Assembly: GCA_005843825.1 (NCBI GenBank)
Contig: SZXX01000025.1
Coordinates: 1 to 64,000, forward strand
DNA length: 64,000 bases
From: Chlorobium sp.
Lineage (GTDB): Bacteria; Bacteroidota; Chlorobiia; Chlorobiales; Chlorobiaceae
Direction of reading: 5' to 3'
Of this stretch, positions 1 through 39,904 are shown one piece after another. Position 1 is the stretch's first letter. Each line of letters starts with the position of its first letter. The translations under genes and the position numbers were made by a program. The notes beneath the pieces are model-generated. The model was given only the letters and a program-made list of their open reading frames with translations. It was not told where the DNA came from and did not search any database.

Positions 1-26
1 ACAGAGTGGGGTCCACTTCAAACTGC

Positions 27-44
27 ATACCGTATTTAAGGTAT
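27..44. promoter_or_regulatory. Sulfur-regulon operator copy 1 (inverted repeat)
   Basis: The 18-bp inverted repeat ATACCGTATTTAAGGTAT has the ATACC-N8-GGTAT form found again at 14246, 18966, 37818 and 49870. Here one position in each arm departs from the best copy (ATACCATAAATATGGTAT). It lies about 90 bp before a Cys-rich leader ORF and about 260 bp before the porin gene. Downstream of it a stretch ending GGTTTGG resembles the sequence beside the 37818 copy. It is probably a transcription-factor site; the half-sites resemble the ATACC/GGTAT arms of some Rrf2-family cysteine regulators, but the regulator is not encoded in this window. Confidence 0.6.
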
Positions 45-136
45 TTTTAATAATCGGTTTGGTTTTATGTTAATAATTTGGTTTTATAAGCAGCAAATAA
101 TATCAAAATTAAGCCTTCACTTTTAAATCAAGTATT

Positions 137-205
137 ATGTTAAATATCTGCTGTTGTTGTCGATGTAAAAAATATTCTGATATAAATGTTTTGGTGCCTA
201 TGTAG
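137..205 (+). CDS. Cysteine-rich leader peptide 1 (22 aa)
   Basis: This short ORF starts MLNICCCCRCKKY and ends PM with a TAG stop, so five of its first ten residues are Cys, four of them consecutive. It sits between the operator at 27 and the intrinsic terminator at 235, upstream of the porin/SsuA/dehydratase-like operon. That is the layout of an attenuation leader. Scarce Cys-tRNA would stall the ribosome at codons 5-10. The stalled ribosome would leave the TTGGT near 189-193 free to pair with GCCAA at 237-241, which breaks the terminator stem. Two other sulfur operons here have the same arrangement. The ribosome binding site is weak. The role is inferred from position and composition. Confidence 0.75.
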   Translation: MLNICCCCRCKKYSDINVLVPM

Positions 206-234
206 TACTTGATCAAATGAGCAAGTTTATTATT

Positions 235-270
235 AAGCCAATTCTTTTTCTCGGAGAGTTGGCTTTTTTT
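235..270 (+). terminator. Attenuator terminator before porin 1
   Basis: AAGCCAA (235-241) pairs with TTGGCTT (259-265) and is followed by a T run to 270, the form of a Rho-independent terminator. It lies 30 bp after the Cys-rich leader ORF and 33 bp before the porin start, so it would stop transcription before the operon unless relieved. It also argues against starting the porin at the in-frame codon at 217, which lies upstream of this stem. Confidence 0.75.
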
Positions 271-303
271 GTGTCCATAATTCAAAATCATAAAATATAT
301 ACA

Positions 304-1689
304 ATGAGTAAAATAAAATTGATAATACTTGTTCTTGGAGGCTTGTTAATTGGAAATGCTAATGTACACGCAGCCAAGGGGCCAAATACGGAGCCGCAGA
401 ATACTCAACCCGGAAGTAGTACGGTAGGAGAGGAAAATCCAGTGTCTTCAGAAACTCTTGAACCCGCTCGGCCTGTAACAAGGGAAGAATTAGAAGGCGT
501 CAGGTCAGAATTGGCAGTTGTTAATGATAAGTTGAATTATCAGCTTACAAACAATATTCCCAGTACAACCCGGTCACTACAAATTAACGGTATTTTTCAG
601 AATCGTTACAATGATGTGACATATAGTTCCAACCAGAATACTCTTCCTTATTCAAACGGTTTTGTATTCAATCAAGTGGTTCTTTCGTTCAGGGGGAATT
701 TGAAGAGGGATTATGAGGAAGGTAGAAACGTAGATTACGTCGTAAGTTTTGCAGCCTCAGGTGCAACATCATACAATTTACAGGCAACGGATGTTTATCT
801 GCAGTACTCTATTCTTCAGTCTCTCGATATTGAAAAAGCTTATATGTATGTCCAGTTTGGGCAACAAAAAATCCCCTTCGGCCTTGAACCGCAAGTGCTC
901 GAGGCTTTTACACCAACGGTAAATTTAGCGACGTTTGCCGGCCCGGGCGGATTTAACCTTGCAGCCAGGGATATCGGTATTCAGTTACGAGGAGATCTTT
1001 TCCCTTCTGTAGACGTAGGATATAATTATCGTAATCCATTTATCCAATACGCGTTTGGAGTTTTTAACGGTAGTGGTCAGAATGCGCTGGATAGCAACTC
1101 GGAAAAGGATGTTGTAGGCAGGATAGTTCTTAATGCTCCCGTCGACTATAACTCTATCTGGCGAGGTCTATCCCTGGGGACTTCAATATACTCGGGAGAA
1201 CCGACTCTTGCCTCCCCAACCACAGGCGGAGTTACTCAAGTGGGTTCCAAAAAGCGGTACGGGGTTGATTTAGCGTATGTGCCTGTAAGTAATCCAATCG
1301 GGATTACGGCGGAATATGTTTCTGGCAAGAGCGACAGTATTCTCTCCGGGAATACACTTGCTAATGAAGTTATAAAGACAACATATAGTTCAGGATCAAC
1401 TGTAACACTCTTTTATAATTTCGGTGAGCAGTTCCTGAAGAATTACGATAACCAGTCTCGGCACGATGATTGGTGGCCTACGACCTATCAGCCATTTGTT
1501 CGCTTTGATCATTATAACTCAGACACATCTGGCGCAGGAACTAAAACCTCTGTGGTCACTTATGGCTTCAACTGGTTCTTTGCACCAACGACCAAATTCC
1601 AGCTTAACTACAATGTGAGCGATATAAAAACAGCCAGTACCAGTTCTAAAAACAATCAGCTGCAGCTGCAATTTCAATACGGATTCTAA
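304..1689 (+). CDS. Phosphate-selective porin O/P-like outer-membrane porin
   Basis: This outer-membrane beta-barrel of about 461 aa is the first structural gene of the operon. The chosen start (304) gives a clean signal peptide, MSKIKLIILVLGGLLIG..NVHA, cut before AKG. The open frame runs back to 217, but that stretch contains the terminator at 235-270. After a Pro/Thr/Glu-rich linker and a short helical segment (about 60-85) come alternating aromatic beta strands. The protein ends in Phe after strand QLQLQFQYGF, the usual outer-membrane assembly signal. The architecture matches the OprO/OprP family (PF07396). As it leads an ABC-import operon, it probably passes that substrate across the outer membrane; the substrate is unknown. 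Confidence 0.75.
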   Translation: MSKIKLIILVLGGLLIGNANVHAAKGPNTEPQNTQPGSSTVGEENPVSSETLEPARPVTREELEGVRSELAVVNDKLNYQLTNNIPSTTRSLQINGIFQNRYNDVTYSSNQNTLPYSNGFVFNQVVLSFRGNLKRDYEEGRNVDYVVSFAASGATSYNLQATDVYLQYSILQSLDIEKAYMYVQFGQQKIPFGLEPQVLEAFTPTVNLATFAGPGGFNLAARDIGIQLRGDLFPSVDVGYNYRNPFIQYAFGVFNGSGQNALDSNSEKDVVGRIVLNAPVDYNSIWRGLSLGTSIYSGEPTLASPTTGGVTQVGSKKRYGVDLAYVPVSNPIGITAEYVSGKSDSILSGNTLANEVIKTTYSSGSTVTLFYNFGEQFLKNYDNQSRHDDWWPTTYQPFVRFDHYNSDTSGAGTKTSVVTYGFNWFFAPTTKFQLNYNVSDIKTASTSSKNNQLQLQFQYGF

Positions 1690-1715
1690 CTACAAAAATT
1701 AAAAGGAGATATAAA

Positions 1716-2753
1716 ATGAAGAAATGGCTCACTGTTTTACCTGTCGCAGCACTGCTGTTTACAGGTCTAATTGCTCACGCAGAAGAAAAACCAAAAGTTA
1801 TTCGTTATGGGTCTGTTGGTAATGCTTTTGGAAAACCATACGCAGCAGGTACTGATGGTGTCGTTGACGTTCAGGCGTTATTAGTAAATGAATTCAGAAA
1901 TGATGGCGTACGTATAGAGAGAACCTATTACACGGCTACAGGGCCGGGCTTGAATGAAGCTTTTGCTGCTGGTTTACTCGATTTTGGGGATTACGGTGAT
2001 CTTCCGATTGTTGTAGGAAAAGCTGGCGGATTGAAAACCAAATACATTCTTCCTACGAACAAAGGCAGCAATATTTACATCATTGCGACTCCACAGTCGA
2101 AGATCAGTTCTGTCAAAGATCTTAAAGGGAAAAAAATAGCAGTGACGAAAGGCACTTATCTTCATCTCACTCTTAATAGGGTACTTGAAGCTAATGGGTT
2201 GACTGAGAAGGATGTAAAACTGGTCAATCTAAGTACTTCAGATGCACAAAATGCAATTGCTGCCGGTAGCGTTGATGCATTTGCAGGCCTGCCTGATCGC
2301 CCCCTTGTAGACCAGGGATTAGCCAAATTGATTTACGATACACGGAAAGATCCTCAGAAATGGCGTGGTCGGAGTGGCCTGCTTGTGTCAGAAGATTTTG
2401 CCAGAAAGTATCCTGAATTCACAAAAAGAGTTGTTAAGGCTAAAATCAAAGCAGCTCATTGGGCTTCACAGGAAAAGAATAGAGAGGCTTTAATCCAGCT
2501 CGCACTCAAAACAGGTAGTGGATATAAAGTTACCAAAGAGGATTTTGCCGGTCAGGATTTGACGGCTAAGTATTCCCCATTGGCAGATCAATCGACAGTG
2601 AACCAATACAAGGAAATAGTTGATTTTGCATTTTCACGTGGGTTGATCAGAAAAAAATTCGATGTAGATACATGGATTGACAAGAGTTTCGCAGAGGCGG
2701 CATTGAAAGAACTTGGCCTTCAGAACTATTGGACACCATTAAGTAAAGAGTAA
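1716..2753 (+). CDS. SsuA/NMT1-like periplasmic substrate-binding protein
   Basis: This 345-aa ABC binding protein has a signal peptide (MKKWLTVLPVAALLFTGLIAHA, cut before EEK). An AAGGAGAT ribosome binding site lies 8 bp before ATG. The sequence YGSVGNAFGKPY..., the DFGDYGDLPIVVGKAGG segment (about 90-106) and SKISSVKDLKGKKIAVTKGT (about 127-146) are typical of the SsuA/TauA/NrtA/THI5 family, which binds aliphatic sulfonates, taurine, nitrate or pyrimidine precursors. It works with the permeases at 6347 and 7138 and the ATPase at 7943. The putative Cys-attenuation leader favours a sulfur compound such as a sulfonate, but binding specificity cannot be read from sequence alone. Confidence 0.82.
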   Translation: MKKWLTVLPVAALLFTGLIAHAEEKPKVIRYGSVGNAFGKPYAAGTDGVVDVQALLVNEFRNDGVRIERTYYTATGPGLNEAFAAGLLDFGDYGDLPIVVGKAGGLKTKYILPTNKGSNIYIIATPQSKISSVKDLKGKKIAVTKGTYLHLTLNRVLEANGLTEKDVKLVNLSTSDAQNAIAAGSVDAFAGLPDRPLVDQGLAKLIYDTRKDPQKWRGRSGLLVSEDFARKYPEFTKRVVKAKIKAAHWASQEKNREALIQLALKTGSGYKVTKEDFAGQDLTAKYSPLADQSTVNQYKEIVDFAFSRGLIRKKFDVDTWIDKSFAEAALKELGLQNYWTPLSKE

Positions 2754-2780
2754 AAGAAGTGACGGATTTCAGGGTCGCAT

Positions 2781-2815
2781 AAAAAGGAGCGAACCAATAT
2801 GTTACGCTCTTTTTT
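2781..2815 (+). terminator. Terminator-like hairpin after the binding-protein gene
   Basis: AAAAAGGAGCG pairs with CGCTCTTTTTT across a 13-nt loop, giving a strong stem (one G-T pair) with its own U tract. It lies 28 bp after the binding-protein stop. As an internal partial terminator it would keep porin and binding protein abundant relative to the enzyme and permease genes downstream, a common ABC-operon arrangement. Confidence 0.75.
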
Positions 2816-2869
2816 ATCCACTGGATTAATCATGGTAAAGTTTCAATAACATAAGAATTGGAGAATTTA

Positions 2870-3679
2870 ATGTCGTTAAACAAAAATTTTTTTGCGGGTG
2901 TTGATGTGGGTTCGCTTGCCGCGAAATCAGTGATTCTGCAGGATGGGGAGATCTTTGCTACTGGATTGGTACCGAGCGGGGTTAACTCTGTAGAAAGCGG
3001 ATTGAATGCCTTGAACCTGGCACTTGAGACTGCCGGACTGAAAAAGGAAGATCTAACCTATATCGTTGGAACTGGTTATGGTCGCGTTTCTGCACCTTAT
3101 GCAAATAAGGCAGTAACTGAAATTACCTGCCACGCAAAAGGCACAAATTACCTGCATCCTACTGTTCGGACGATCATTGACATGGGTGGCCAGGATTGTA
3201 AAGCAATCAGGATTGACAAGGATGGAGCCGTAATCGATTTCGCTATGAATGATAAATGTGCTGCAGGTACTGGTCGTTTTCTGGAAGTAATGGCCGGTGT
3301 CTTTAAAGTTAGACTTGAAGATCTTGGTGCTATAGCTCTGGCTGCTACGGACACTGTCCCGATGAGTAGTACCTGTACGGTTTTTGCCGAGTCGGAGACG
3401 ATATCCCTTGTCGCAAGAGGGGAGAAACCTGAAAATATTCTGAGTGGTATTCATCACTCGATTGCAAATCGCATTGCCGGACTTTTCTCAAGAGTGGGTA
3501 TTGAAAGCGATGTCTTTTTTTCCGGTGGAGTTGCAAAAAATATTGGTATGAAAAATGCAATCGAAGAAGCTCTAAAAGTCACTATTGTCAAGCCTGAAAT
3601 TGATCCTCAGCTTATCGGAGCTTTAGGCGCCGCAGTTCTTGCGCGCAGCTTTTCCAAAAAGGAGGGATTATGGGCTTAA
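2870..3679 (+). CDS. BadF/HgdC-type [4Fe-4S] ATPase activator
   Basis: This 269-aa ASKHA-fold ATPase belongs to the BadF/BadG/BcrA/BcrD family. Family members are homodimers that use ATP to push a low-potential electron into 2-hydroxyacyl-CoA dehydratases or double-cubane proteins. Visible are the N-terminal phosphate loop GVDVGSLAAKS (10-20), MGGQDCK (105-111), the two cluster cysteines in NDKCAAGTGR (Cys130) and SSTCTVFAE (Cys169), and FFSGGVAKN (216-224). The start at 2870 has GGAG 7 bp upstream; an in-frame TTG at 2858 is poorer. It overlaps the next gene by 10 bp, so the three enzyme genes are tightly coupled. Confidence 0.85.
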   Translation: MSLNKNFFAGVDVGSLAAKSVILQDGEIFATGLVPSGVNSVESGLNALNLALETAGLKKEDLTYIVGTGYGRVSAPYANKAVTEITCHAKGTNYLHPTVRTIIDMGGQDCKAIRIDKDGAVIDFAMNDKCAAGTGRFLEVMAGVFKVRLEDLGAIALAATDTVPMSSTCTVFAESETISLVARGEKPENILSGIHHSIANRIAGLFSRVGIESDVFFSGGVAKNIGMKNAIEEALKVTIVKPEIDPQLIGALGAAVLARSFSKKEGLWA

Positions 3680-4848
3680 AGACGCTTGAAAAAATAACCG
3701 CGGCTCTCACAAGTCGTCCTGCAGAACTTGAGCAACTGCGCAAACAAGGGAAAAAAATAGTCGGTTGGCTTGCCTATAACATACCGGAAGAGATTATCTA
3801 TGCACTTGGATTGATACCAATCCGGGTGGGACAGGGTGGTGACGGAAGATTAGTGGAGGTCGGCGCACGCCACATATCGACCAAAAATTGCGTATTTGTT
3901 CGTCAGGTTCTTGGCCAATTTGCAGAGAAAACTGATCCGTACATCAAGCAACTGGATCTTGTGGCGATTGATGCAACATGCATTCAGCTCTATCGCCTGG
4001 AAGAACTTATTAATTTCTATTTCGACTATAAAACGGTTGTCCTGGGAGTTCCGCGCAATTTTGCAACAAAAGAAGGTCACGAGTATTTCAGGAAGGAAGT
4101 AGAGCACTTTACAAAAAAACTTGAACTGTTTGCCGGTGTTAGTCTGGAACAGTCAAAGCTTCAGGAAGCGATCAATATCTATGACGGGATCAGGGAAGCT
4201 ATCAAGACACTCTACAGCTATCAAAGCAAGGATAATGCACCCTTAAGCTGGCGGGACGTGTCCGCTGTAATCAATGCTGGTTATAATCTGGACCGGTTGA
4301 GATATCTGGAACTTTTGCAGGAACTGATAAAGGAAGTTGAAGAGAAAACCTCAGAGCCTCAAGAAAATCAGGCGATAGAAGCAAGGGTATTCCTTTCAGG
4401 AAGCCTTATTCCACCCGGCGATACTAAGCTCATTGATATTATCGAGCAATTGGGCGGGCGCATAGTTGGTGATGACTTGTGGTCCGGGCTCAATTTTTTC
4501 CTTAATCTTGAAATCAAAGAGCCGACACCTTTTGGTGTTGCTGATGCCTATCTCGACAGGATCCCGCACGCCTCACTGCCATATCTTGATCTTCCCACTG
4601 ACGGCAGGTTAGCAAATTTGAAGCATCAGATACAGCAGTTCAACGCAGACGGGGTGATCTATCATACTCTGCGCTATTGCGATGCGTTCACTTTTAAAGC
4701 AGGGGAAACAAAGGATGTTCTGAAAAATGTGCCTTTTCTGGAAATCCATACAGAATATTCAGGCTCTGATTTTGAAGCAATTCGCACCAGAGTGGAAGCT
4801 TTCGTTGAAATGATCAAGAACAAGAAAGAAATCGCTGAACTCGTTTAG
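3670..4848 (+). CDS. 2-hydroxyacyl-CoA dehydratase-family (HgdB-like) Fe-S protein, subunit 1
   Basis: This 392-aa protein of the 2-hydroxyglutaryl-CoA dehydratase D-component family (PF06050) starts after a strong AAGGAGGG site. Family members bind a [4Fe-4S] or double-cubane cluster and do ATP-driven reductions. Signature parts are GWLAYNIPEEIIYALGLIP (32-50), KNCVFVRQ (Cys74), DATCIQLYRLEEL (Cys104), SGSLIPPGD, and RYCDAF (Cys337); these cysteines are the likely cluster ligands. The position before PEEII that is often Cys in relatives is Tyr/Asn here. No CoA transferase or ligase gene is nearby, so the substrate may not be a CoA ester. The true reaction is unknown. Confidence 0.8.
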   Translation: MGLKTLEKITAALTSRPAELEQLRKQGKKIVGWLAYNIPEEIIYALGLIPIRVGQGGDGRLVEVGARHISTKNCVFVRQVLGQFAEKTDPYIKQLDLVAIDATCIQLYRLEELINFYFDYKTVVLGVPRNFATKEGHEYFRKEVEHFTKKLELFAGVSLEQSKLQEAINIYDGIREAIKTLYSYQSKDNAPLSWRDVSAVINAGYNLDRLRYLELLQELIKEVEEKTSEPQENQAIEARVFLSGSLIPPGDTKLIDIIEQLGGRIVGDDLWSGLNFFLNLEIKEPTPFGVADAYLDRIPHASLPYLDLPTDGRLANLKHQIQQFNADGVIYHTLRYCDAFTFKAGETKDVLKNVPFLEIHTEYSGSDFEAIRTRVEAFVEMIKNKKEIAELV

Positions 4849-4869
4849 TAAATCAAATGGAGACATATA

Positions 4870-6258
4870 ATGCCTAATAGTAAACTGTTTAAATATCCAG
4901 AAGAGATTAAGGATAAATTTATATCGACCAAAGGTCTGAAATTCAAGAATGGTACAACGGTGAGTTCAGCCGAGATCTGGGAGTTCATGACTGAAGAGGC
5001 TCCAAGGCGGTTTCCGTATGCTTTCGATGCTAATGCAAATAACATCGGCCGATTTTCTGATGACGTTCATTTCTTGTCGGGTATTAAAAGGGCTTACCTG
5101 ACCCTTACCTTTAAAGACAGGTTATTGAAAGAACATGCTGCAGGTACTCCTACGGTTCTTGTTCAGGGAGGTCAGGCAATGGACGCTTACTACGCTGCAG
5201 GAGCGATTCCTGTGCGTCCTGGATTAGTAATGCAATGGGCACAAAGTATGGAAGAGGGGCTTAACCTTCGTCAGTCAGAAACACGAGGTATCAATATTCT
5301 GGAATCGGGACGGCGCAAAATCAGTATTGACGCCTGTAATCAGATTTCGGCGCATGCTGCGATCGACAATAAGGTTGTGCCTATAGACCTTATTGCTCCT
5401 TTTCTTTGCCTCCGCTGTTCTGATATGGCGTTTCTGGTTGAAACACATCGCAACAGAGAGCACGATATTCCGCGTTATATGGTCGATTATCCTGTCGATC
5501 ATGAAAACAAGCCGTGGGCAGCAGAATATATCGAAGTTGAACTGAAAGAACTCATTACAAAAATCGCTGCACTTTCCGGCAGAAAGATTACTGATGAAGT
5601 AATCTTTGATGAAATAAGACTTGAAAACCGTGGCCGTAAAATCGCTAATGAGATTGCTGAATTATGGTGGAATGCTGAAAACCCGCCGATTAATAGCACT
5701 GATTTCTTTGCTATAGCGTTCCTTGCTAACGATTTCTTGGGTGATCCTGTTGCTTCGGTTGACCTGTTGGAGCAAAGCAAACAAGAAATAGAAGAGCGGG
5801 TAAAGAATAACGTCAAGGGTTACGGCGTGCCTGATGATGCCAAACGCCTGTACATTTGTGGTTCATGTGTTGGACCGAATGCCCACCATGCGGAAACTGC
5901 GGGCGCTGTTTTTGTTGGTCGGGATGACAATTGGAGCTGCATTTCAGTGCTTGTTGAAGAAGAGGGAAATCCGTACCTCAATATTGCCAAATCCATGCTG
6001 GAGTATCCTTATGAACAGCGTACAGAGAAGCGGGCTGAATGGACAGCTGAACAGGTAAGGCGTTCCCGTGCCAGCGGCGTTATTTTCATGTACCAATGGG
6101 GCTGCAATTATCAGAGTGGCGTGGCTCGTATGATCTCGGATATCATTCGAGAGAAGACTGGGGTACCCACGACATTTGTTGAAGTTGGAGAATTAGGACG
6201 ATCTGAAGCAACCGAACAGTCGACCAATCGCGTCGAAGCATTCATAGAAATGGTATAA
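4870..6258 (+). CDS. 2-hydroxyacyl-CoA dehydratase-family (HgdA-like) Fe-S protein, subunit 2
   Basis: This 462-aa protein is a second, divergent member of the same family, 21 bp after subunit 1, so the two probably form a heterodimer fed by the ATPase at 2870. Recognisable parts are the N-terminal VLVQGGQAMDAYYAAGAIPV (97-116), the cysteines in IDACNQISAH (Cys156) and FLCLRCSDM (Cys180, Cys183), ICGSCVGPNAHH, and the C-terminal MYQWGCNYQSG. The extra N-terminal 60 residues and the ICGSC..HH segment are not things I recognise from characterised dehydratases. This suggests a distinct, undescribed subfamily. Confidence 0.78.
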   Translation: MPNSKLFKYPEEIKDKFISTKGLKFKNGTTVSSAEIWEFMTEEAPRRFPYAFDANANNIGRFSDDVHFLSGIKRAYLTLTFKDRLLKEHAAGTPTVLVQGGQAMDAYYAAGAIPVRPGLVMQWAQSMEEGLNLRQSETRGINILESGRRKISIDACNQISAHAAIDNKVVPIDLIAPFLCLRCSDMAFLVETHRNREHDIPRYMVDYPVDHENKPWAAEYIEVELKELITKIAALSGRKITDEVIFDEIRLENRGRKIANEIAELWWNAENPPINSTDFFAIAFLANDFLGDPVASVDLLEQSKQEIEERVKNNVKGYGVPDDAKRLYICGSCVGPNAHHAETAGAVFVGRDDNWSCISVLVEEEGNPYLNIAKSMLEYPYEQRTEKRAEWTAEQVRRSRASGVIFMYQWGCNYQSGVARMISDIIREKTGVPTTFVEVGELGRSEATEQSTNRVEAFIEMV

Positions 6259-6274
6259 CATATCAGGCTAAATC

Positions 6275-6304
6275 CCCGAAAGACCCTTCTTTGGGTTTTT
6301 CGGG
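6275..6304 (+). terminator. Intercistronic hairpin
   Basis: CCCGAAA(6275-6281) pairs with TTTCGGG (6298-6304), with an inner ACCC/GGGT extension. No U run follows, so it is more likely an mRNA processing or stability element between the enzyme and permease genes than a full terminator. Confidence 0.5.
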
Positions 6305-6346
6305 AAATGATTGTCATGAACACGATTTTTTCGCTGTATAAAGATT

Positions 6347-7141
6347 ATGAGTAAATCACTATTAAAACGATTTGAATGGAAGGATAAACTTCTTGCATTT
6401 ATTGTACCTCTTCTTGTGCTGGTTGCCTGGCAGAGTGCAGTATCGCTGCAACTATTTTCCGAAATGATTCTTGTGCCCCCGTTAACCGTAATGAATACAC
6501 TTGTTGATCTTGCCCGAACGGGTGACCTCACCAACAACATCATATCCAGTTTGAAACGGGTACTTTCTGGTTTTCTGCTCGGAGCTTCCACCGGTTTTTT
6601 TCTTGGACTGTTAATGGGGCTTTCATCATTGTTGGATAGATTCGTAGGGCCATTGATAAAAGCATGCAAACAGGTGCCACAGTTTGCTTTGATGCCTTTG
6701 ATAATATTATGGTTTGGTATAGATGAAGTTTCTAAAGTTGTATTCATATCGATCGGGGCATTTTTCCCCATGGTTTTTAATACCTATCAAGGCGTGAGTG
6801 GTGTTCCGAAAAAATATCGAGAATTGGCCCGTGTTTTCAATTACAAAAGCTTTCGTTACCTGACCAAGGTTATCCTTCCCGGTGCTTTACCTTCGATAAT
6901 AACAGGCGTGCGTCATAGTCTTGGATTATCATGGATGTTTGTGGTTGGAGCTGAGCTTTTCGGTTCTGAATCTGGCGTGGGCTATATGATGGTCTGGGCG
7001 CGTCAATTGTTCCAGATCGATATTGTTATGGCTGGGCTGTTTGTCATTGGCATTATTGGTTTTACCATGAACATTATTCTCCAGATAATTGAAAAAAGGG
7101 TCTTGCGCTGGCGTGTCTCCTTTGATGGGAGAATGGCGTGA
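6347..7141 (+). CDS. SsuC-like ABC transporter permease 1
   Basis: This 264-aa inner-membrane permease has about six hydrophobic helices and the BPD_transp_1 coupling loop. The region around YRELARVFNYKSFRYLTKVILPGALPSII (155-183) carries the EAA-type motif that docks with the ATPase. It resembles permeases of sulfonate, nitrate and taurine importers. It follows the dehydratase-like genes by 88 bp and overlaps the second permease by 4 bp. Two permeases in one operon suggest a heterodimeric channel. Confidence 0.85.
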   Translation: MSKSLLKRFEWKDKLLAFIVPLLVLVAWQSAVSLQLFSEMILVPPLTVMNTLVDLARTGDLTNNIISSLKRVLSGFLLGASTGFFLGLLMGLSSLLDRFVGPLIKACKQVPQFALMPLIILWFGIDEVSKVVFISIGAFFPMVFNTYQGVSGVPKKYRELARVFNYKSFRYLTKVILPGALPSIITGVRHSLGLSWMFVVGAELFGSESGVGYMMVWARQLFQIDIVMAGLFVIGIIGFTMNIILQIIEKRVLRWRVSFDGRMA

Positions 7142-7926
7142 CGACGAAAAATATCACCAGCAAAGGAAAAGCAATGCTGGTTAGTATCACACTTCCAGTA
7201 CTGTTGATCTTGTTTTGGCAATTAATTACATCAACAGGTTATGTTTCACCCCACATTCTGCCCTTACCCAAAAATGTCATTAAGATATTTTTGAGTCTTT
7301 TCTCCGAAGAGCGCTTGATGCTTCATATTGTGATCAGCTTAAGAAGGGTAATGAGCGGATTTCTAATTGGTATTGCTGCCGGGTTTTCGTTTGGTTTGCT
7401 GATAGGGTTGTCAAGAACAGGCGAAAAAATATTTGCTCCTTTTTTTCATGCCTTACGGCAGGTGCCGATGATAGGTTGGATCCCATTGATCGTCATGTGG
7501 TTTGGAATGAGTGAACTGCCTCGCATTCTCGTTATCGCCATAAGTGCTTTTTATCCAATGGCCCTGAATACGTTCACTGGTGTCAGGAATGTGCCCAGTG
7601 AGTATATCGAGCTTGCCTCAGTCTATGGGTATAAAAGATTAAAGCTTATAAGACGTGTTATTATACCGGCGGCATTGCCTTCTATCATAACAGGTATTAC
7701 CCTCAGTCTTGGAATGTCGTGGGTAATTCTGGTGGCAGCAGAACTGCTTATTGAAACACCTGTTGGTATTGGTCGACTGATCTCAAATGGGCGTGAGACA
7801 TGCAATATGGAACAAGTATTAGTGGGGATTATCACGGTTGCTTTGCTTGGCTTCATTATGACAATGATGATTGAGAAATTAGCGAAAGTAGTGGAACGTG
7901 GAAGGAGCATTCACCAGGAACTTTAA
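7138..7926 (+). CDS. SsuC-like ABC transporter permease 2
   Basis: This 262-aa paralogue of the preceding permease shares its overall plan: VPSEYIELASVYGYKRLKLI (about 147-166) then RRVIIPAALPSIITG, followed by LSLGMSWVILVAAELL. The start is a GTG inside the upstream stop (GTGA overlap), so translation is coupled. With permease 1 and the ATPase at 7943 it forms the import complex for the ligand of the binding protein at 1716. Confidence 0.85.
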   Translation: MTTKNITSKGKAMLVSITLPVLLILFWQLITSTGYVSPHILPLPKNVIKIFLSLFSEERLMLHIVISLRRVMSGFLIGIAAGFSFGLLIGLSRTGEKIFAPFFHALRQVPMIGWIPLIVMWFGMSELPRILVIAISAFYPMALNTFTGVRNVPSEYIELASVYGYKRLKLIRRVIIPAALPSIITGITLSLGMSWVILVAAELLIETPVGIGRLISNGRETCNMEQVLVGIITVALLGFIMTMMIEKLAKVVERGRSIHQEL

Positions 7927-7942
7927 ATTCAAAGGAAATAAG

Positions 7943-8722
7943 ATGTCAATCGGGAAGGGTATTCTTGAGATCAAAAATTTAAGCAAAAGCTTTATTGTCG
8001 ATAACAATCCATTACAAGTACTGAATGATATTAACATCACTATTCCTCCAGGAAATTTTGTATCCATTATCGGTTCAAGTGGGTGCGGAAAGACAACGCT
8101 GCTGCGCATAGTATTAGGGCTGGAGACCAATTATGAAGGTGATGCGTTGATAGACGGAGAACAAATAGAAGGCCCGGGGATAAACAGGGGAATAGTTTTT
8201 CAGGATCACCGCCTACTTCCCTGGCTGACAGTGGGAGAGAATGTAGCATTCGGACTGGATGGGAAAAGTCGGAAGGAGACGGAGGTTATTGTTGATGAAC
8301 ATCTCAAGCTTGTTGGCCTTAACGGCTTTAAGAGTGCTTATCCTTGTCAGTTGTCAGGTGGCATGGCCCAGAGAGCTGCAATTGCCAGAGCCTTGGCGAA
8401 CAAACCTGAAATACTTCTTCTGGACGAACCTCTTGGTTCTCTGGATGCCATGACCAGAATGCATATGCAAAAAGAGCTTGAGCGTATATGGCTCTTTGAA
8501 AAAATCACCATGATTTTGGTCACACATGATGTTGAAGAAGCAATATACCTTGGAGACAAGGTTGTTATTATGTCTTCCCGGCCTGGTGTTATTAAAAAGA
8601 TAATTGATATACCATTTACAAGACCACGTGACAGGAGTAGTTATGAATTTATGCAGATAAAATCTGAAATATTGGAAGAGTTTCATTTAGGAGTTGAACA
8701 CCCGTTTATTTACTCCATCTGA
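7943..8722 (+). CDS. SsuB-like ABC transporter ATPase
   Basis: This 259-aa nucleotide-binding subunit of the importer starts at 7943 after AAAGGAAA; an upstream in-frame GTG (7898) lies inside the permease gene. It shows Walker A GSSGCGKTT (44-52), the Q loop in FQDHRLLPW, signature LSGGMAQR, Walker B ILLLDEPLGSLDA and switch VTHDVEEA. The LLPW..NVAFGL stretch is typical of the nitrate/sulfonate/taurine (NitT/TauT) ATPases. It is the last gene of the operon. Confidence 0.88.
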   Translation: MSIGKGILEIKNLSKSFIVDNNPLQVLNDINITIPPGNFVSIIGSSGCGKTTLLRIVLGLETNYEGDALIDGEQIEGPGINRGIVFQDHRLLPWLTVGENVAFGLDGKSRKETEVIVDEHLKLVGLNGFKSAYPCQLSGGMAQRAAIARALANKPEILLLDEPLGSLDAMTRMHMQKELERIWLFEKITMILVTHDVEEAIYLGDKVVIMSSRPGVIKKIIDIPFTRPRDRSSYEFMQIKSEILEEFHLGVEHPFIYSI

Positions 8723-8882
8723 CATCAGGTCTATAGCTCTCCTGAAACGCCTCTTTATCGCTCAGGTTAAATACCTGAAGCATTATTTCGAAATTCCGAT
8801 ACATAAATAGACAACAAAATCCTCAGCTAAACTTTGGGGCTGTATCAATAAGAAGAGTTCCAAAAATTAAGTCCAGGAGTAT

Positions 8883-9011
8883 ATGAGTTGCTTTTTCTTT
8901 TCTGAATCTGGCAGAGAGTTATTGTTTAACATCAACCGGGTGATCTTTTCTACGCATTCTTCTTACTGTATGAGCATTGATAAACCTAAGGAGCCTGAGA
9001 GGTATGTATAA
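8883..9011 (+). CDS. Possible small ORF upstream of ABC exporter (42 aa)
   Basis: A 42-codon ORF beginning MSCFFFSESGRELLF runs into the start of the exporter gene, its TAA overlapping that gene's first codons. AGGAG precedes it with short spacing. It could be a coupling or leader ORF, or chance. It resembles nothing I recognise. Confidence 0.25.
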   Translation: MSCFFFSESGRELLFNINRVIFSTHSSYCMSIDKPKEPERYV

Positions 9012-10785
9012 TATTTTCAGGCTTGGCTATTTTCTCAAACCTTATTGGAAACAGTCGTTTATCTCGCTTTTATTATTGATAGCAGTCGTTGCAATGGATT
9101 TGAGCATCCCTCGTCTGATTCAGAAAATCATCGATCAGGGTGTTCATAAGCATAATCAGCACATAGTTGTGACAACGGGATGTATTATGCTTGGCATAAC
9201 ATTATTGAGCGTTCTGTTTGCCATCTGGTCACACATTTTATCAGTTAGAGTCGGTGAGTGTGTTGCGCGGGATATTCGTGAAGCCTTGTTTCTAAAAATC
9301 CAATCTTTTTCTTTTGGCAATATTGACCGCATGAATACCGGTCAGCTTATGGTTCGTCTATCCAGCGATATTTCAGCGGTTCAGCGTGTTGCCCAGTTTT
9401 CCCTGCGAATTGGTACACGCTCTTTTTTGCTGCTGATTGGCAGTCTTATCCTGATGATCAGAACCAGTATCAGCCTTTCACTCTCTATGTTCCCGTTACT
9501 TCTTATAACAGCAGTTCTCATCATATTTTTTGTTGTAAAAATGGAGCCGCTGTGGTGTGCTGTTCAACAACAGCTCGACAGGCTCAATACAGTTTTGCAG
9601 GAAAATATTGCGGGTATTCGCTTGATCAAGGCATTTGTCAGGGCTGACTTTGAGTTCTTGCGGTTTAACAAGACTAATCAGGCGTTTACAAGAGACTCAA
9701 TAAGTGTAATGAAATTTATGGCGAGTATGCCACCGATATTGACCATGTGTATTAACACAGGTATGGTTCTTGTTATTTGGGTTGGTGGCCTCAATACTAT
9801 TCGGGGCGAGCTTACGATAGGACAGGTTGTTGCGTTTACGAATTATCTTCTGACAACCATGGCCCCGATGATCTTTATGGCGAATTTGACGAATGTTTTG
9901 GCCGCCGGTATCGCGTCATCGAAGCGCGTTGTCGAAGTCCTTGATATTATCCCGGATATTCAGGACGATGCTGTTGCGAAAGATATGTTTGAGCATACCC
10001 GAGGAGGGATTGTTTTCGAGAGTGTTTCTTTCCGTTATAGAAATGCTGGCGGTGGTATGCTCCTTGATGATATCAGTTTTACAGTTGAACCAGGAAAGAC
10101 TCTTGCCATCCTTGGAGCCACAGGAGCTGGAAAATCAACGCTTGTCAACCTCATCCCCAGGTTTTACGATCTTTCATCAGGCAGAATCCTGATTGATGGG
10201 ATAGATATCAGAGAGGTAACACAGGACTCACTGCTTCGGAGAATCTCAATTGTTCCTCAGGAAACTATTCTCTTTTCAGGCACTATTCTTGACAATATTC
10301 GATATGGTGTACCCACAGCAAGTCATGAAGAAGTAATACAGGCGGCTAAAGTTGCCCAGGCTCATGATTTTATTCTCAGCCTGCAGCATGGGTATGATAC
10401 AAGGGTTGAAGAGCGTGGTGTTAATCTTTCCGGGGGTCAGAAACAGCGTATTGCCATTGCTCGGGCGATGCTTGCATCCCGTCAGATACTGATTTTTGAT
10501 GATAGCACAAGCGCGGTTGATATTGACACCGAAACCAGAATACAAGATGCTCTGGCTGCAAAATATACAAACTGCACCATCCTTATTGTTGCTCAGCGCA
10601 TAAGTTCGGTACTGAATGCCGACAAGATCATAGTACTTGACAAAGGTCGTATTGTTGGAGAAGGTAGCCATGCTCAGCTTATGCAGAGTTGTAAGGTCTA
10701 CCGCGAAATTTATGATTCACAGCTGGGTTGTGATAAGTCACAAGATAAAGTCAGTACGGTATCGGAGAGAGGGGTGTTGCGATGA
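9004..10785 (+). CDS. ABC exporter half-transporter, degenerate-site subunit
   Basis: This 593-aa type IV ABC exporter half has six N-terminal membrane helices (about 10-300) and a C-terminal ATPase. The start at 9004 follows GGAG. Walker A GATGAGKST, Q loop VPQETILFSG and signature LSGGQKQR are normal. Walker B is followed by Asp (IFDDSTSAVD) where the catalytic Glu normally sits. Its partner at 10782 has the Glu, so this is the non-catalytic half of an asymmetric heterodimer such as TM287/288, BmrCD or TmrAB. The substrate (lipid, drug or peptide) is unknown. Confidence 0.88.
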   Translation: MYNIFRLGYFLKPYWKQSFISLLLLIAVVAMDLSIPRLIQKIIDQGVHKHNQHIVVTTGCIMLGITLLSVLFAIWSHILSVRVGECVARDIREALFLKIQSFSFGNIDRMNTGQLMVRLSSDISAVQRVAQFSLRIGTRSFLLLIGSLILMIRTSISLSLSMFPLLLITAVLIIFFVVKMEPLWCAVQQQLDRLNTVLQENIAGIRLIKAFVRADFEFLRFNKTNQAFTRDSISVMKFMASMPPILTMCINTGMVLVIWVGGLNTIRGELTIGQVVAFTNYLLTTMAPMIFMANLTNVLAAGIASSKRVVEVLDIIPDIQDDAVAKDMFEHTRGGIVFESVSFRYRNAGGGMLLDDISFTVEPGKTLAILGATGAGKSTLVNLIPRFYDLSSGRILIDGIDIREVTQDSLLRRISIVPQETILFSGTILDNIRYGVPTASHEEVIQAAKVAQAHDFILSLQHGYDTRVEERGVNLSGGQKQRIAIARAMLASRQILIFDDSTSAVDIDTETRIQDALAAKYTNCTILIVAQRISSVLNADKIIVLDKGRIVGEGSHAQLMQSCKVYREIYDSQLGCDKSQDKVSTVSERGVLR

Positions 10786-12605
10786 GTCGTTACCAGCAGA
10801 GTGGGCTAGACAACAACAAACATATAGGGATCGGCAATACCGTTCAACCTGGCAAAATTGAAAAACCGAAGAACTCGGCTACAGCTGTTCATCGATTGCT
10901 TGGATATCTCTTGCCCTTCAGGCCTCAATTATTGGCAGTTGCCATTTTGGTAGTACTCTATTCTTTACTTGGGTTGTCCGGGCCTTACCTTATCGGGCTG
11001 GCAATAGATCGTTTCATGGTTGAAAAAAATATTGCGGGGCTTGAAAGAATATCGTTGTTGATGCTCTTGGTTTATTTAATCTATAACCTGTTTCAGTTGA
11101 TATCAGGCTGGATTATGGCTAAGGTCTCTCAAACTGCCCTTAAGCAGTTGAGCGGAGATCTCTTTACGCACATACAGACCTTACCTGTCAGTTATTTTGA
11201 TCATACTTCGCCAGGGAGTTTGATGAGCAGGCTGACGAACGATACTGACGCAATCAATCAGGCGATCTCCCAGAATGTTACCTCCCTGGTTGCCAGTGTT
11301 CTTTCTCTGCTTGGTATCATGGTGGCTATGTTTCTGCTGAACTTATGGCTGGCTTTAAGCGCGCTGCTTGTTATTCCAGTCATGCTCTGGTTTACACAGT
11401 TTGTCGCACGTAATACACGCAAAGGGTTCCGGGAGCTTCAAAAACAGCTTGGCGAAATGTATGGTGTCATGGAAGAGTCTATCAGTGGTCTGAAAGTGAT
11501 CAAGGCATTCCGGCGTAATGAAGAGGTGATTGAGCGGTTTCAGAGTCAGAATGATAAGGTTTTTAAGGCTGCAGTCTATGCAAATAGCTACGCAATGATG
11601 CTCATGCCGTTAACTAACGTTCTTGGGAACCTTTTTGTCATTGTTATTGCATTCGTTGGTGGATGGATAGCACTCAAAGGTATGGTTACTGTCGGGGTTA
11701 TTGCAACATTTATTATCTATGGACAGAATTTTATTCAGCCCCTTCGCCAGCTTGCGAATATGTATAACATCATTCAGGCAGCGCTTGCAGGGAGTGAAAG
11801 AATATTTGAAATTCTTGATATTCCATCAGAAGTTGATGCACCGGTTAATACAGAATCATCAACTATCTCCGGAATAATACGTTTCGATCATGTGAGGTTT
11901 GGCTATAAGAAAGGTATTTCCGTGGTCAAAGATATGACATTCGATGCCGCACCAGGTAAAACCATTGCTTTGGTAGGTCCTACAGGGGCTGGAAAAACCA
12001 CAATTATCAATCTTCTGACCCGTTTTTATGAGATAAGCAGTGGCGTCATCACTATAGCAGGAAAGGATATCCGCGATTACAGCAAAGCTGACTTGCGTCG
12101 AAAAATTGGACTGGTGCTGCAGGATACCTTTCTATTCTCCGGTACTGTTCTTGAAAATATCCGTTTTGGCCGACTTGATGCAACAGATGCAGAATGTCAT
12201 CAAGCAGCAAAACTTGCCGAAGCAGATGAGTTTATCCGCCAGCTTCCAGAGGGGTATAATACCATACTGTCGGAACGGGCAGGGAATTTGAGCCAGGGGC
12301 AACGGCAGTTGCTTGCCATAACCAGAGTTATTCTTGCAAATCCTGAGATATTGATTCTTGACGAAGCAACAAGCAGTGTCGATACCAGAACCGAGCTTCG
12401 TATACAGAAAGCGTTATTGACACTGATGAAGGGACGGACAAGCTTTGTCATTGCCCATCGGCTCAGTACCATTCGCGAAGCTGATCAGGTGCTCGTTATC
12501 GACAAAGGAACCATAGCCGAAAAGGGAACACATCAGGAACTTCTTGATCAGGAGGGGGTTTATTATGATCTCTACATGAGCCAGTTCAAAGGGTTGGCAA
12601 TTTAG
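10782..12605 (+). CDS. ABC exporter half-transporter, catalytic subunit
   Basis: This 607-aa partner of the preceding gene overlaps it by ATGA. It has an N-terminal extension of about 35 residues, six membrane helices, and an ATPase with Walker A GPTGAGKTT, Q loop VLQDTFLFSG, Walker B ILDEATSSVD carrying the catalytic Glu, and IAHRLSTI switch. Its signature is LSQGQRQ in place of LSGGQ, as in the canonical-Glu subunit of many heterodimeric exporters. Together the pair forms one consensus and one degenerate ATP site. Confidence 0.88.
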   Translation: MSRYQQSGLDNNKHIGIGNTVQPGKIEKPKNSATAVHRLLGYLLPFRPQLLAVAILVVLYSLLGLSGPYLIGLAIDRFMVEKNIAGLERISLLMLLVYLIYNLFQLISGWIMAKVSQTALKQLSGDLFTHIQTLPVSYFDHTSPGSLMSRLTNDTDAINQAISQNVTSLVASVLSLLGIMVAMFLLNLWLALSALLVIPVMLWFTQFVARNTRKGFRELQKQLGEMYGVMEESISGLKVIKAFRRNEEVIERFQSQNDKVFKAAVYANSYAMMLMPLTNVLGNLFVIVIAFVGGWIALKGMVTVGVIATFIIYGQNFIQPLRQLANMYNIIQAALAGSERIFEILDIPSEVDAPVNTESSTISGIIRFDHVRFGYKKGISVVKDMTFDAAPGKTIALVGPTGAGKTTIINLLTRFYEISSGVITIAGKDIRDYSKADLRRKIGLVLQDTFLFSGTVLENIRFGRLDATDAECHQAAKLAEADEFIRQLPEGYNTILSERAGNLSQGQRQLLAITRVILANPEILILDEATSSVDTRTELRIQKALLTLMKGRTSFVIAHRLSTIREADQVLVIDKGTIAEKGTHQELLDQEGVYYDLYMSQFKGLAI

Positions 12606-13156: not shown

Positions 13157-14173
13157 TCAGGGAGTAGTAATCTGATCGAACACCCCACCGTCACTGAAGT
13201 GTATTTTCTGTGCACTGCGCCAGTTCCCGAATACTTCCTTAAGAGTAAACAGCTTGATGTTCGGGAAGTTTGCTGCATATTTTTTCAGTGCGGCAGCATT
13301 TCTCGGTCGATAGGAGTTTTTTGCGATAATGTCCTGTGCCTCCGGAGTATAAAGGAAGTTCAGATAGGCTTCAGCGGCCTTACGGGTGCCATGTTTATCA
13401 ACGTTTTTATCGACAATAGCCACAGGCGGCTCAGCCAGAATGCTGACAGGGGGAAGAACGATTTCATATTGATCCGATCCGAACTCTTTAAGAATCAGGT
13501 GAGCCTCATTTTCCCATGCCAGAAGAACATCGCCAATACCCCTTTGCGTAAAGGTAAGGGTTGAACCTCGGGCTCCCGTGTCAAGAACCGGGACATTTTT
13601 ATATAAAGCCTTGACAAATTTTTTAGCCTGATCAGTTGAGTTTGTCTGTTTTTGTTTGTAGCCCCATGCCGCCAGGTAGACCCAGCGGGCACCTCCTCCG
13701 GTTTTCGGGTTTGGTGTTATAACCGATACACCCGACTTTACAACGTCATCCCAGCTCCTGATCTGTTTCGGATTTCCCTTGCGTACAACAAAAACGATTG
13801 TAGAGGTATATGGAGTGCTGTTATCGGGCAATCTTTTCTGCCAGTCAGGATCGAGAAGTTTGCTGTCGGCAATGGCATCAATGTCATTGGCAAGAGCAAG
13901 AGTGACCACATCGGCTTCAAGTCCGTCAATAATGGCACGTGCCTGTTTACCGGAACCGCCGTGTGACTGGTTGATTGTCACAGTCTGGCCCGTTTTCTGT
14001 AACCAGTACTTTGCAAAAGCAGCATTTTCACTCTGATAGAGTTCCCTCGTAGGGTCATACGATACATTCAGCAGAGTAACATTTCCTGCGGCCTCTGCCA
14101 GAGTGACCGGAAGTCCGGAGGTGAGAAAAAGCACACCGAACAGCGTAAATTTTTTTATCCAGTCATGACTCAC
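13157..14173 (-). CDS. sbp: Sulfate/thiosulfate-binding protein, lone copy (sbp1)
   Basis: This 338-aa periplasmic binding protein of the CysP/Sbp family starts at GTG 14173 (AGGAG 6 bp upstream), giving signal peptide [22 protein letters not shown]. Family marks are [33 protein letters not shown] and [16 protein letters not shown], which line the sulfate site. It is a close paralogue of the copy at 48575, which heads cysTWA. This copy has no permease genes beside it and presumably shares CysTWA. The operator at 14246 is about 73 bp upstream with no leader peptide or terminator between, so its control should differ from that of the second copy. Confidence 0.9.
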
Positions 14174-14245: not shown

Positions 14246-14274
14246 ATACCATAAAAATACCATAAACAAGGTAT
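14246..14274. promoter_or_regulatory. Sulfur-regulon operator copy 2
   Basis: Two ATACCATAAA half-sites 11 bp apart and a GGTAT arm occupy 29 bp. The same layout recurs at 49870 and, inverted, at 18966. The flank CCAAGC(G/A)T is also shared with the 49870 copy, pointing to duplication of promoter plus gene. It lies upstream of sbp1 (minus strand), and the divergent osmC gene starts 188 bp away. Confidence 0.75.
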
Positions 14275-14461
14275 GTCGCTTGCGAGCGCGCCAAGGCTAC
14301 TCTCTTTGCGGTATAAGTATTACCTCATAAACGGGATTTACTTTGAGTTGACCCTGTCGGATATTAAAGAGGTGAAATCCTGAAAGATTTATTTGAGGGA
14401 TACCTCAATCCACTCACCAATGGAATTTTTTTCCTCTTTAACCTAAAAAGGAAACACATAC

Positions 14462-18791: not shown

Positions 18792-18965
18792 AAAAGTAGT
18801 CGATTAAGGCCTTAATTTAATCCCTTTTTCAGTACTGAATATAGCTATTCTTTTCTTGAAACTGCCATGAATACCAAGTGAAAACCAGAAAACAAGTTTC
18901 CCCCCTGACTGCCAGCCACGTTCCCCCTTTTTTCCCTTGAATTGAGCAGAATACGGTCGTTTTCT

Positions 18966-18994
18966 ATACCATATTCATGGTATTTTTATGGTAT
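18966..18994. promoter_or_regulatory. Sulfur-regulon operator copy 3
   Basis: ATACCATATTCATGGTAT followed by TTTTTATGGTAT is the exact mirror layout of the 49870 copy, pointing toward the plus-strand porin at 19291. As with the copies at 14246 and 49870, it is followed by a GCTTG-type stretch. Confidence 0.75.
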
Positions 18995-19057
18995 ATGCTT
19001 GTAAATAAACAAGATAAAAGCCTCATTGTTAACAATCGAAATACAAATGACACTCGT

Positions 19058-19162
19058 ATGAATGCTCAAGACTTATTCAATAAAGGACTTTTCAGCACGT
19101 CATCATGCTGTTGTTGTCTCTTTGTGGATGCTGATATATCGGATCCCGGATTAATGACATAG
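19058..19162 (+). CDS. Cysteine-rich leader peptide 2 (34 aa)
   Basis: This short ORF, MNAQDLFNKGLFSTSSCCCC then LFVDADISDPGLMT, has four consecutive Cys codons (TGC TGT TGT TGT, 19106-19117) and a TAG stop. It ends 29 bp before the terminator at 19192, which itself precedes the porin. A ribosome stalled at the Cys run would expose CCCGG near 19145-19149, able to pair with the terminator's GCCGGC arm. The frame continues upstream into the operator, so the exact start is a choice; 19058 is the last ATG before the Cys run. Confidence 0.7.
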   Translation: MNAQDLFNKGLFSTSSCCCCLFVDADISDPGLMT

Positions 19163-19191
19163 ATGCCCTGTTGATTGGGGCTGAATATTTC

Positions 19192-19226
19192 AAAGCCGGC
19201 TTTCAATATCAGAGCCGGCTTTTTTT
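19192..19226 (+). terminator. Attenuator terminator before porin 2
   Basis: AAAGCCGGCT (19192-19201) pairs with AGCCGGCTTT (19213-19222) and a T run follows. It sits 65 bp before the porin ATG and just after the Cys-rich leader ORF, as in the first operon. Confidence 0.8.
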
Positions 19227-19290
19227 ATGAAATTTTTTTCCTGAACACATAACACACTACACAACAACCAATAAAAAGGAGTACAGTAAA

Positions 19291-20388
19291 ATGAAAAAGA
19301 TGTTTTCACTAGCTGCGATGTTCGCAGTTCTCTCATACGCATCACCGGCTTCGGCTGAAGTAACGCTCAATGGTGAAGTTGGTTTGCGTCTTAGAAACGA
19401 TTTCGGTAATTCGACAACAACTGCCGGTGCCAGAACAGTGACCGAAGACCAGTATTTCCAGTACCGTGTTCGTCTGAAACCTTCAGCTGATCTTGGCGAA
19501 GGCTACTTTGTTAAGGCATTGTTTCAGGACGAAGGTGTTGCTGGAGCCTGGCGTGGTTTAGGGACTACCGGGGCAACTGCTAACAACACGGAACAATATT
19601 CGATAACGGCCTCGCAGTTTTACTTTGGACATGGCGATGCATGCAGCCATTGGGTTGCCGGTCGTATTCCGCTCGGTAGTTTTGACAACCCTATTCTGGA
19701 TCTGACTCTTTATGCAATTCCAGGTACCGGCCCTCAAGGAACAAAACTCTATGCGGTTGATACTCCGATTTCCACAAATCATTTTGACCGTCTATTGGGT
19801 TTTAATTATGGCACAAAGATCGGTGACGGTGATTTTAATGCTGTTGTTGTTAATTTTGACAACGTTTCGACAACCACTGCCGATAAAGGGCTTTTAAACG
19901 ACGGGTACGGTTTCACTGCTAACTATAAGACCAATATTGGTGATGTAACTATTGTTCCACAGGGCTTTATAACCTTGACTCATCTTGCCGATGGTCGTTC
20001 TCCTTACTCCTTTGGTACTCAGGCCTTCATTCCTGCAGGGAAATCCAAAGTTTCTCTCAGCGGATTCTATACCGGAGACAGTAATACCATTCCGAAGACG
20101 ACGACAAAGATTGATTATAGCGGTTATATCTTCAGGGTTAAAGGTGAATCCGGTCCGGTTCTTGCCTGGATAGATTACAACAGAACCAAAGACAATGCAG
20201 GCGCTACTACGTACAACAATACCTTTGTCTGGGCGCAGTATCTCATTAAGGTGCAGGACTCAAATAAAGGAACCTTCTCCCTGCAGCCGACAATCAGGTA
20301 CCGTGCCTCTGGTTCAAAGACCGATGCAGGTCTCTCAACATCGAACGATCTGTTCCGTGGAGAGCTCTACGCAACGGTAAGCTTCTAA
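19291..20388 (+). CDS. Outer-membrane porin 2
   Basis: This 365-aa outer-membrane beta-barrel has signal peptide MKKMFSLAAMFAVLSYASPASA, strong GGAG, regular amphipathic strands and a terminal LYATVSF ending in Phe. The N-terminal EVTLNGEVGLRLRNDF and later YGFTANYKTNIGDVTIVPQGFITL resemble general porin or alginate-export-type barrels. The Cys leader and operator upstream suggest induction under sulfur limitation, for example for sulfate or organosulfur entry. The tRNA-Cys genes follow with no obvious promoter between. Confidence 0.75.
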   Translation: MKKMFSLAAMFAVLSYASPASAEVTLNGEVGLRLRNDFGNSTTTAGARTVTEDQYFQYRVRLKPSADLGEGYFVKALFQDEGVAGAWRGLGTTGATANNTEQYSITASQFYFGHGDACSHWVAGRIPLGSFDNPILDLTLYAIPGTGPQGTKLYAVDTPISTNHFDRLLGFNYGTKIGDGDFNAVVVNFDNVSTTTADKGLLNDGYGFTANYKTNIGDVTIVPQGFITLTHLADGRSPYSFGTQAFIPAGKSKVSLSGFYTGDSNTIPKTTTKIDYSGYIFRVKGESGPVLAWIDYNRTKDNAGATTYNNTFVWAQYLIKVQDSNKGTFSLQPTIRYRASGSKTDAGLSTSNDLFRGELYATVSF

Positions 20389-37657: not shown

Positions 37658-38025
37658 GCTGGCTTATAGAAGAACAACATCCCCCTGAAAACATCTATCC
37701 ACTCTGGCTGTCGTTGAAAGTTCAGCTTTCTCCGGCAGCCCTTGGCTGGATGATCTGCAAATCAATTTTTTCATTCCACATTTCATCTTTGCCTTTGCTG
37801 CATAAAATCATTCCCATATACCATATTTATGGTATTTCTGATCGATTGGTTTGGAGATGTGGCTTGTATAAGGTTTTATTAAAAAACATGAATCTTTCCG
37901 TTTTCTTGCTGTCATCGGGGAAAAGAGAGAAGAGATGTGGGTGAGTGGTTTTGTAGCATCCTGCTGGCAGTCTCATCGTTATTGAACATTCATTATTTTT
38001 GAAAAACATTTGAATACCTGAAAGC
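37658..38025. other. Leader region of the sulfite reductase operon
   Basis: This holds the operator at 37818, then a possible 16-aa ORF (37935-37985, MWVSGFVASCWQSHRY) with a purine-rich upstream. Bases 37934-37949 are identical to part of tRNA-Cys at 20684-20699. No intrinsic terminator was seen. Confidence 0.5.
37818..37835. promoter_or_regulatory. Sulfur-regulon operator copy 4
   Basis: ATACCATATTTATGGTAT is a perfect 18-bp inverted repeat, the best core match to the 49870 copy. It lacks the third half-site. It lies 190 bp before the sulfite reductase gene and probably controls the whole 38026-44410 assimilation operon. Confidence 0.75.
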
Positions 38026-39889: not shown

Positions 39890-39904
39890 CCTTATTTAGA
39901 AAGA

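Follow-up and report, generated by a model that had tools for sequence, protein, structure and literature searches.

What would a green sulfur bacterium take up and reduce with a gene cluster that joins an outer-membrane porin and a sulfonate-type importer to an ATP-dependent reductase resembling 2-hydroxyacyl-CoA dehydratases (HADs)? The cluster in question occupies positions 25-12605 of a 64,000-nucleotide stretch (the window), which is the first 64 kb of contig 2 (SZXX01000025.1) of a Chlorobium sp. metagenome-assembled genome (MAG; GCA_005843825.1; Chlorobiaceae, 2.55 Mb, 98% complete); the contig ends where the window starts, so the region further upstream is not visible. An initial annotation, made from the sequence alone, had placed eight of its genes in a putative sulfur regulon and suggested that they import and reduce an organosulfur compound, using an enzyme related to double-cubane proteins. 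Our analysis upholds the regulatory half of that interpretation by three lines of evidence, and membership of the cluster in a sulfur-starvation regulon is strongly supported; the chemical half is plausible, and the double-cubane analogy fails for one of the two reductase subunits. The cluster is genuine and clearly delimited and, judging by the literature searched, has not been described before. It probably serves anaerobic organosulfur scavenging, in which an anionic organosulfur compound would be taken up and cleaved reductively at the expense of ATP to supply sulfur.

Two candidate control elements, both already recognized in the initial annotation, precede the first gene. One is an operator, the inverted repeat GCATACCGTATTTAAGGTATTTTT (25-48, + strand, 0 mismatches). 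The repeat RCATACCNTNTTTAWGGTATTTTT is present at 25, 14253(-), 18964, 37816 and 49877(-), i.e., five copies in the window compared with 0 in 100 shuffles, and all five precede sulfur genes. These are the operon encoding the reductase subunits (dA and dB); the gene for a sulfate-type binding protein (sbpS, 13157-14173, - strand; operator 14253-14276 (-)); the gene for a second outer-membrane-like protein (porin2, 18964-20388, +); sulfite reductase, cysH, cysD, cysN and cysG-like genes (37816-44410, +; operator at the front); and sbp2 with cysTWA (45683-49900, -; operator 49877-49900). A looser form of the pattern, allowing at most one mismatch, has seven sites genome-wide, five of which are the window copies. 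An operator-like site with one mismatch lies in the gap between an MFS-like and an NRAMP-like gene in the same genome (C56:15089-15110, L076), where it may have arisen by chance.

The other element is a Cys-rich leader open reading frame (ORF), MLNICCCCRCKKYSDINVLVPM (MLNICCCCRCKKY...; 137-205, +), which is followed by a strong intrinsic terminator (235-265, +; 13 pairs and then a T run, with both-sided changes that keep pairing at 4 of 9 consensus pairs). Leaders with the same layout and differing peptides precede the homologous porin in relatives (all relatives named here are Chlorobiaceae MAGs), NflHDK and radical-SAM clusters elsewhere and, in the window, porin2 (leader 18995-19162, terminator 19192-19222) and sbp2 (leader 49713-49865). 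To evaluate the arrangement, we examined intergenic Cys-run ORFs in loci picked before model building and sought terminators at 40-260 nt. A terminator was present for 15 of the 30 ORFs, and in all 15 cases it was located 108-121 nt from the Cys run (P=3e-13 versus other residues); 18 "Leu-run" matches in the same test probably arise when these leaders are read in a different frame (TTG TTG). A chance origin was rejected for both elements, by these spacing statistics for the leader and by the shuffle counts for the operator.

A covariance model of the attenuator, R1, in which the leader described above is a seed sequence (match 149-277, 113 bits), matches 41 of the 61 genomes of the genus, and no Rfam family matches the attenuator. 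Downstream genes were listed for 83 matches, 14 of which are seeds and which, given homology of whole clusters, are not independent events. Most are followed by porin-SBP-(ATPase-dA-dB)-importer clusters (SBP, periplasmic binding protein), ATPase-dB'-dA'-dB modules, NflHDK, or radical-SAM clusters, the last combining a variant radical SAM protein (NF045502), PPOX proteins, an NMT1 importer and exporters; the other targets are porin2, genes for RND efflux, arylsulfotransferase (ASST)-like genes and metY-cysK-cysE-like genes (L173).

The third line of evidence, which is independent of the DNA signals, is the composition of the encoded proteins. Proteins produced in large amounts under sulfur starvation are expected to be poor in Met and Cys. 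Beyond the start Met, the SBP of the cluster, Sbp2 and SbpS contain no Met or Cys and the porin contains one (a Met; 0 Cys), the lowest values of the 45 proteins in the window, for which the average is 3.07% (P between 9e-6 and 3e-5 for each of the four; 9e-6 for the porin and 2e-5 for the SBP). Porin2 contains three such residues, and the 391 residues of dA include a single internal Met and three Cys. In relatives, mean Met/Cys content is 0.23% for the porins, 0.62% for the SBPs, 0.6% for NflD and 0.5% for the PPOX proteins. Because the operator set, the genus-wide attenuator and the purging of Met and Cys from the SBP, porin and dA are three independent lines that agree, we assign the cluster to a sulfur-starvation regulon.

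Several other loci carry the same signals. Porin2, which has no Pfam match and has an operator, Cys leader and terminator of its own, is perhaps a sulfate porin. The two sulfate-type binding proteins (13157-14173 and 48575-49591) are alike, and both have an operator upstream, one of them together with a Cys leader. Two complete Cys attenuators stand in tandem ahead of the porin operon in L029 (4971-5298). On contig 8 of the same genome (L174, 413-6499), an attenuator precedes genes for RND efflux (a membrane-fusion protein, an AcrB-type pump and a third protein of 479 aa), an arrangement also present in L156, L159, L165, L171 and L193. An ASST-like gene with its own attenuator lies immediately upstream of the porin operon in L154 (3142-4584) and L191 (563-2059; the Pfam match was run for L154 only). 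Variant radical SAM proteins (NF045502) and PPOX flavoproteins nearly free of Met and Cys form arrays under attenuators in L077 (6841-9324), L182, L190 and L154. Another, distantly related HGD-D family, accompanied by ATPases and a nitroreductase, is likewise under the attenuator in L189 (7996-14255), L161 (4249-8502) and L187 (4607-9322; Pfam for L189 only).

Which enzyme and which transporter are under this control? Profile searches confirmed that the eight genes, all on the + strand, are intact and belong to the families originally assigned: a porin (304-1689; Porin_O_P, Pfam 3.6e-14), an NMT1/SsuA-like SBP (1716-2753; TIGR01728 155.2 bits, cutoff 163.5), a BadF/HgdC-type ATPase (activase, BcrAD_BadFG; 2870-3679; PF01869 9e-65), dA (3670-4848) and dB (4870-6258), two ABC permeases (permA, 6347-7141, and permease B, 7138-7926; both BPD and SsuC/SaoP-like by profile matches) and an ABC ATPase (abcA, 7943-8722; SaoA/NtrCD/TauB-like), for which the ATG start at 7943 is more likely than the GTG at 7898. 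Genes for a heterodimeric, MsbA-type ABC exporter, missed in the initial annotation, follow directly (9001-10785 and 10782-12605, +). Since this pair is conserved downstream in almost every relative, we take the unit to comprise about ten genes, which extends the original eight. Terminator-like hairpins in the SBP/ATPase gap (2781-2815, +) and the dB/permA gap (6274-6304, +) may grade expression across the putative operon. Matches of the importer to the NCBIfam SaoXPA profiles led us to consider an assignment to SAO; we rejected it, as SAO is a selenoprotein organometallic system and every score is below cutoff. No gene for a desulfonating monooxygenase (SsuD/SsuE or TauD type) is present within the cluster, and no description of this operon type was found in the literature searched.

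dA and dB are the sole HGD-D pair of the whole genome. By profile and predicted fold, dA (beta/N subunit) is of the HadC/BzdN/DCCP type (DCCP, double-cubane cluster protein) and dB (alpha/O subunit) of the HadB/BzdO type; the AlphaFold models (pLDDT 78.5) are reliable only at the level of the fold, with cluster loops of low confidence. The only Cys residues of dA (C74, C104 and C337) and three of the seven in dB (C156, C183 and C412; the others are C180, C330, C333 and C357) align with the cluster ligands of HadC and HadB, respectively, and C156, C183, C333 and C412 are invariant across dB paralogues. The ATPase retains both Cys residues expected of an activase (C130 and C169) and scores 268 bits with TIGR00241 (cutoff 125). 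These features fit a two-subunit, ATP-driven radical reductase, i.e., a heterodimer resembling HAD and benzoyl-CoA reductase (BCR).

A different function would be that of a DCCP-like reductase of small molecules, acting in detoxification or on small inorganic or C-N/N-N compounds, together with an importer whose ligand contains no sulfur. In line with the kinship to double-cubane proteins named in the initial annotation, DCCP is the nearest sequence to dA (E 2e-35; NF040772, 209 bits). The double-cubane cluster of BzdN is held by six Cys thiolates (PMC11971306); dA, with three Cys in all, cannot carry an [8Fe-9S] cluster ligated by six Cys. In dB, where four of the seven Cys are invariant, a larger cluster is conceivable. 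Moreover, NF040772 scores of dA (208.9) and dB (71) are below the cutoff of 350, and dA and dB are encoded as a heterodimer inside a sulfur regulon. We therefore rejected an assignment to DCCP on the basis of profile score and Cys count, and regard a DCCP-like function as very improbable.

More plausible, though still unlikely, is that dA/dB is a CoA-dependent HAD or aryl-CoA reductase supplied with its CoA ester by enzymes elsewhere and merely expressed under sulfur limitation, e.g., for salvage of carbon skeletons. Both subunits have the HAD/BCR fold, their three-Cys sets agree with HAD, and the best structural matches include substrate-bound HadBC and benzoyl-CoA reductases. Arguing the other way, no CoA-transferase or ligase gene is present in or beside the cluster in the window, as originally reported, and none was recognized in the clusters of relatives; regulation and Met/Cys depletion, in addition, indicate sulfur acquisition.

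Does the company that the reductase keeps in other genomes point to sulfur as well? dB is present in 13 of the 61 genus genomes. All 13 have attenuators and all 13 have cysH (41 of 61 overall; hypergeometric P=0.003), and 9 of the 13 have NflK (19 of 61 overall; P=0.002), neither test being corrected for phylogeny. NflHDK, of which none is encoded in the genome studied here, adjoins the cluster in G010, G023 and the L034 genome. Its nearest solved relative is MarDK of Rhodospirillum rubrum, the C-S-cleaving methylthio-alkane reductase (structure 9FMG; PMC12552129). NflK retains equivalents of C32, C56 and C121 of MarK, and among C66, C91, C158 and C270 of MarD only C91 has an equivalent in NflD; because NflD thus retains a single metal ligand of the MarD set, we call these systems Mar-like rather than Mar. 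Mar-like NflHDK sets in L025 (43-2776), L077 (17131-20000), L078 (6492-10218) and L161 (13116-16804) have 1-2 Cys in NflD and 3-4 in NflK, and seemingly lack P-cluster and cofactor ligands.

We favor organosulfur assimilation because NflHDK and metY-cysK-cysE-like genes are co-regulated with the cluster in relatives. In relatives, the same attenuator precedes exporter pairs, genes for RND efflux and radical SAM genes. This could instead indicate that the cluster makes or recycles a small compound such as a metallophore, with exporters secreting it, porin and importer retrieving it, and the reductase and radical SAM proteins modifying it. No biosynthetic scaffold enzymes were recognized, and control is shared with sulfate assimilation and the metY-cysK-cysE-like genes; we consider this the most improbable of the alternatives, slightly behind a DCCP-like function. 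Within organosulfur scavenging, the imported compound might be a thioether, sulfoxide, sulfone or sulfate ester instead of a sulfonate. Similarity of the adjoining NflHDK to methylthio-alkane reductase and the attenuated ASST-like genes beside the porin operon in L154 and L191 are in keeping with such a substrate, whereas the families closest to the SBP and permeases, those for aliphatic sulfonates and taurine, speak against it; a non-sulfonate substrate is a realistic minority possibility, and a sulfonate in particular is about equally tentative.

Several observations weigh against organosulfur scavenging by reductive cleavage. Nitrate, thiamine precursors and bicarbonate are also substrates of importers of this family. 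Similar porin-importer operons lack dA/dB in some relatives (L168, L189 and L158), although L189 has a second HGD-D pair nearby. NflD of the neighboring islands contains 1-2 Cys and thus does not belong to a standard Mar, and neither alifold nor constrained folds of the leader revealed a conserved antiterminator helix. Outside the Chlorobiaceae, the dA/dB family was found only in Ruminiclostridium hungatei (1 of 391 genomes in a scan of Clostridia), and none was found on plasmids. The R. hungatei dA/dB arrays adjoin a LacI regulator, a sugar-type SBP with permeases, and exporters, and lack Cys leaders; this sugar-type context limits how far an organosulfur role can be ascribed to the family as a whole. 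Finally, we infer the reductive step, the sulfonate substrate and the non-CoA nature of the substrate from family and context only. The R. hungatei array (L117-L119) comprises five dB, four dA and two ATPase genes together with sugar-type ABC genes, an exporter pair and LacI, and its dA proteins are Met-poor as in Chlorobium (n=4; one internal Met in three and two in the fourth; 3-4 Cys each).

How might the cluster work if it scavenges organosulfur compounds? Sulfur starvation would lift both operator control and attenuation. Scarcity of Cys-tRNA would stall ribosomes on the Cys run of the leader and allow readthrough of the terminator, a mechanism that we count as inferred because an antiterminator was not found, and a regulator bound to the upstream repeat, either a repressor or an activator, would add a second layer of control. 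The porin and SsuA-type importer would then take up an anionic organosulfur compound, for which sulfonates are the likeliest class. Driven by ATP, the BadF-type ATPase would feed low-potential electrons to the dA/dB heterodimer, at whose open-site [4Fe-4S] cluster a C-S (or S-O) bond may be cleaved reductively without CoA activation. The co-regulated sulfite reductase would channel the released sulfite, sulfide or thiol into cysteine synthesis, and the desulfurized residue would leave through the exporter pair. In its most specific form, this scheme would make dA/dB an O2- and CoA-independent reductive desulfonase, i.e., a HAD/BCR heterodimer that cleaves the C-S bond of free sulfonates to yield sulfite for growth, under a new family of Cys attenuators of green sulfur bacteria; we propose this version with considerable reserve.

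Little is understood of how strict anaerobes, without the help of oxygenases, acquire sulfur from chemically inert organic compounds; the nitrogenase-like methylthio-alkane reductase is one known route. The cluster points to a second, simpler enzyme family for anaerobic organosulfur reduction, one known until now for acyl-CoA chemistry, and the genus-wide cysteine-attenuator regulon marks many further candidate organosulfur reductases. The system also bears on the sulfur supply of photoferrotrophic Chlorobi in sulfate-poor lakes, for which work so far covers sulfate only (PMC5498476).

The closest known systems share some features with the cluster and differ in others. The attenuator resembles uORFC-8-2 of Rhodobacterales cysS (PMC8632094) and the actinobacterial cys leaders (PMC1262725) in that a short ORF with Cys codons is followed by a terminator, and differs from them in phylum, sequence and targets. 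The SBP, permeases and ATPase are of the same superfamily as SsuABC and TauABC, yet the importer has two distinct permeases, a porin of its own and no SsuD/SsuE or TauD oxygenase, and its SBP scores just below the SsuA cutoff. Like HAD (HadBC plus activase) and class I BCR (BzdNOPQ, MbdNO), the reductase has an ATPase, alpha/O and beta/N HGD-D subunits and the corresponding fold, and both dA and dB show the HAD pattern of three Cys per subunit; unlike those systems, it is encoded without a CoA-transferase or ligase and is tied to an importer and a sulfur regulon. Compared with BzdN, dA lacks the double-cubane ligands, and dB adds the invariant C333. DCCP of C. hydrogenoformans and DCCP-R are closest to dA in sequence (24% in the fold alignment) and likewise have a separate ATPase, whereas dA/dB is a heterodimer in which dA has only three Cys and falls below the NF040772 cutoff. 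Although dA/dB belongs to an enzyme family unrelated to MarHDK of R. rubrum, and NflD of relatives lacks most of the cluster Cys, MarHDK scavenges sulfur by ATP-driven, low-potential reduction, the same role that we propose for dA/dB, and MarHDK homologues adjoin dA/dB clusters in relatives, with an attenuator common to both.

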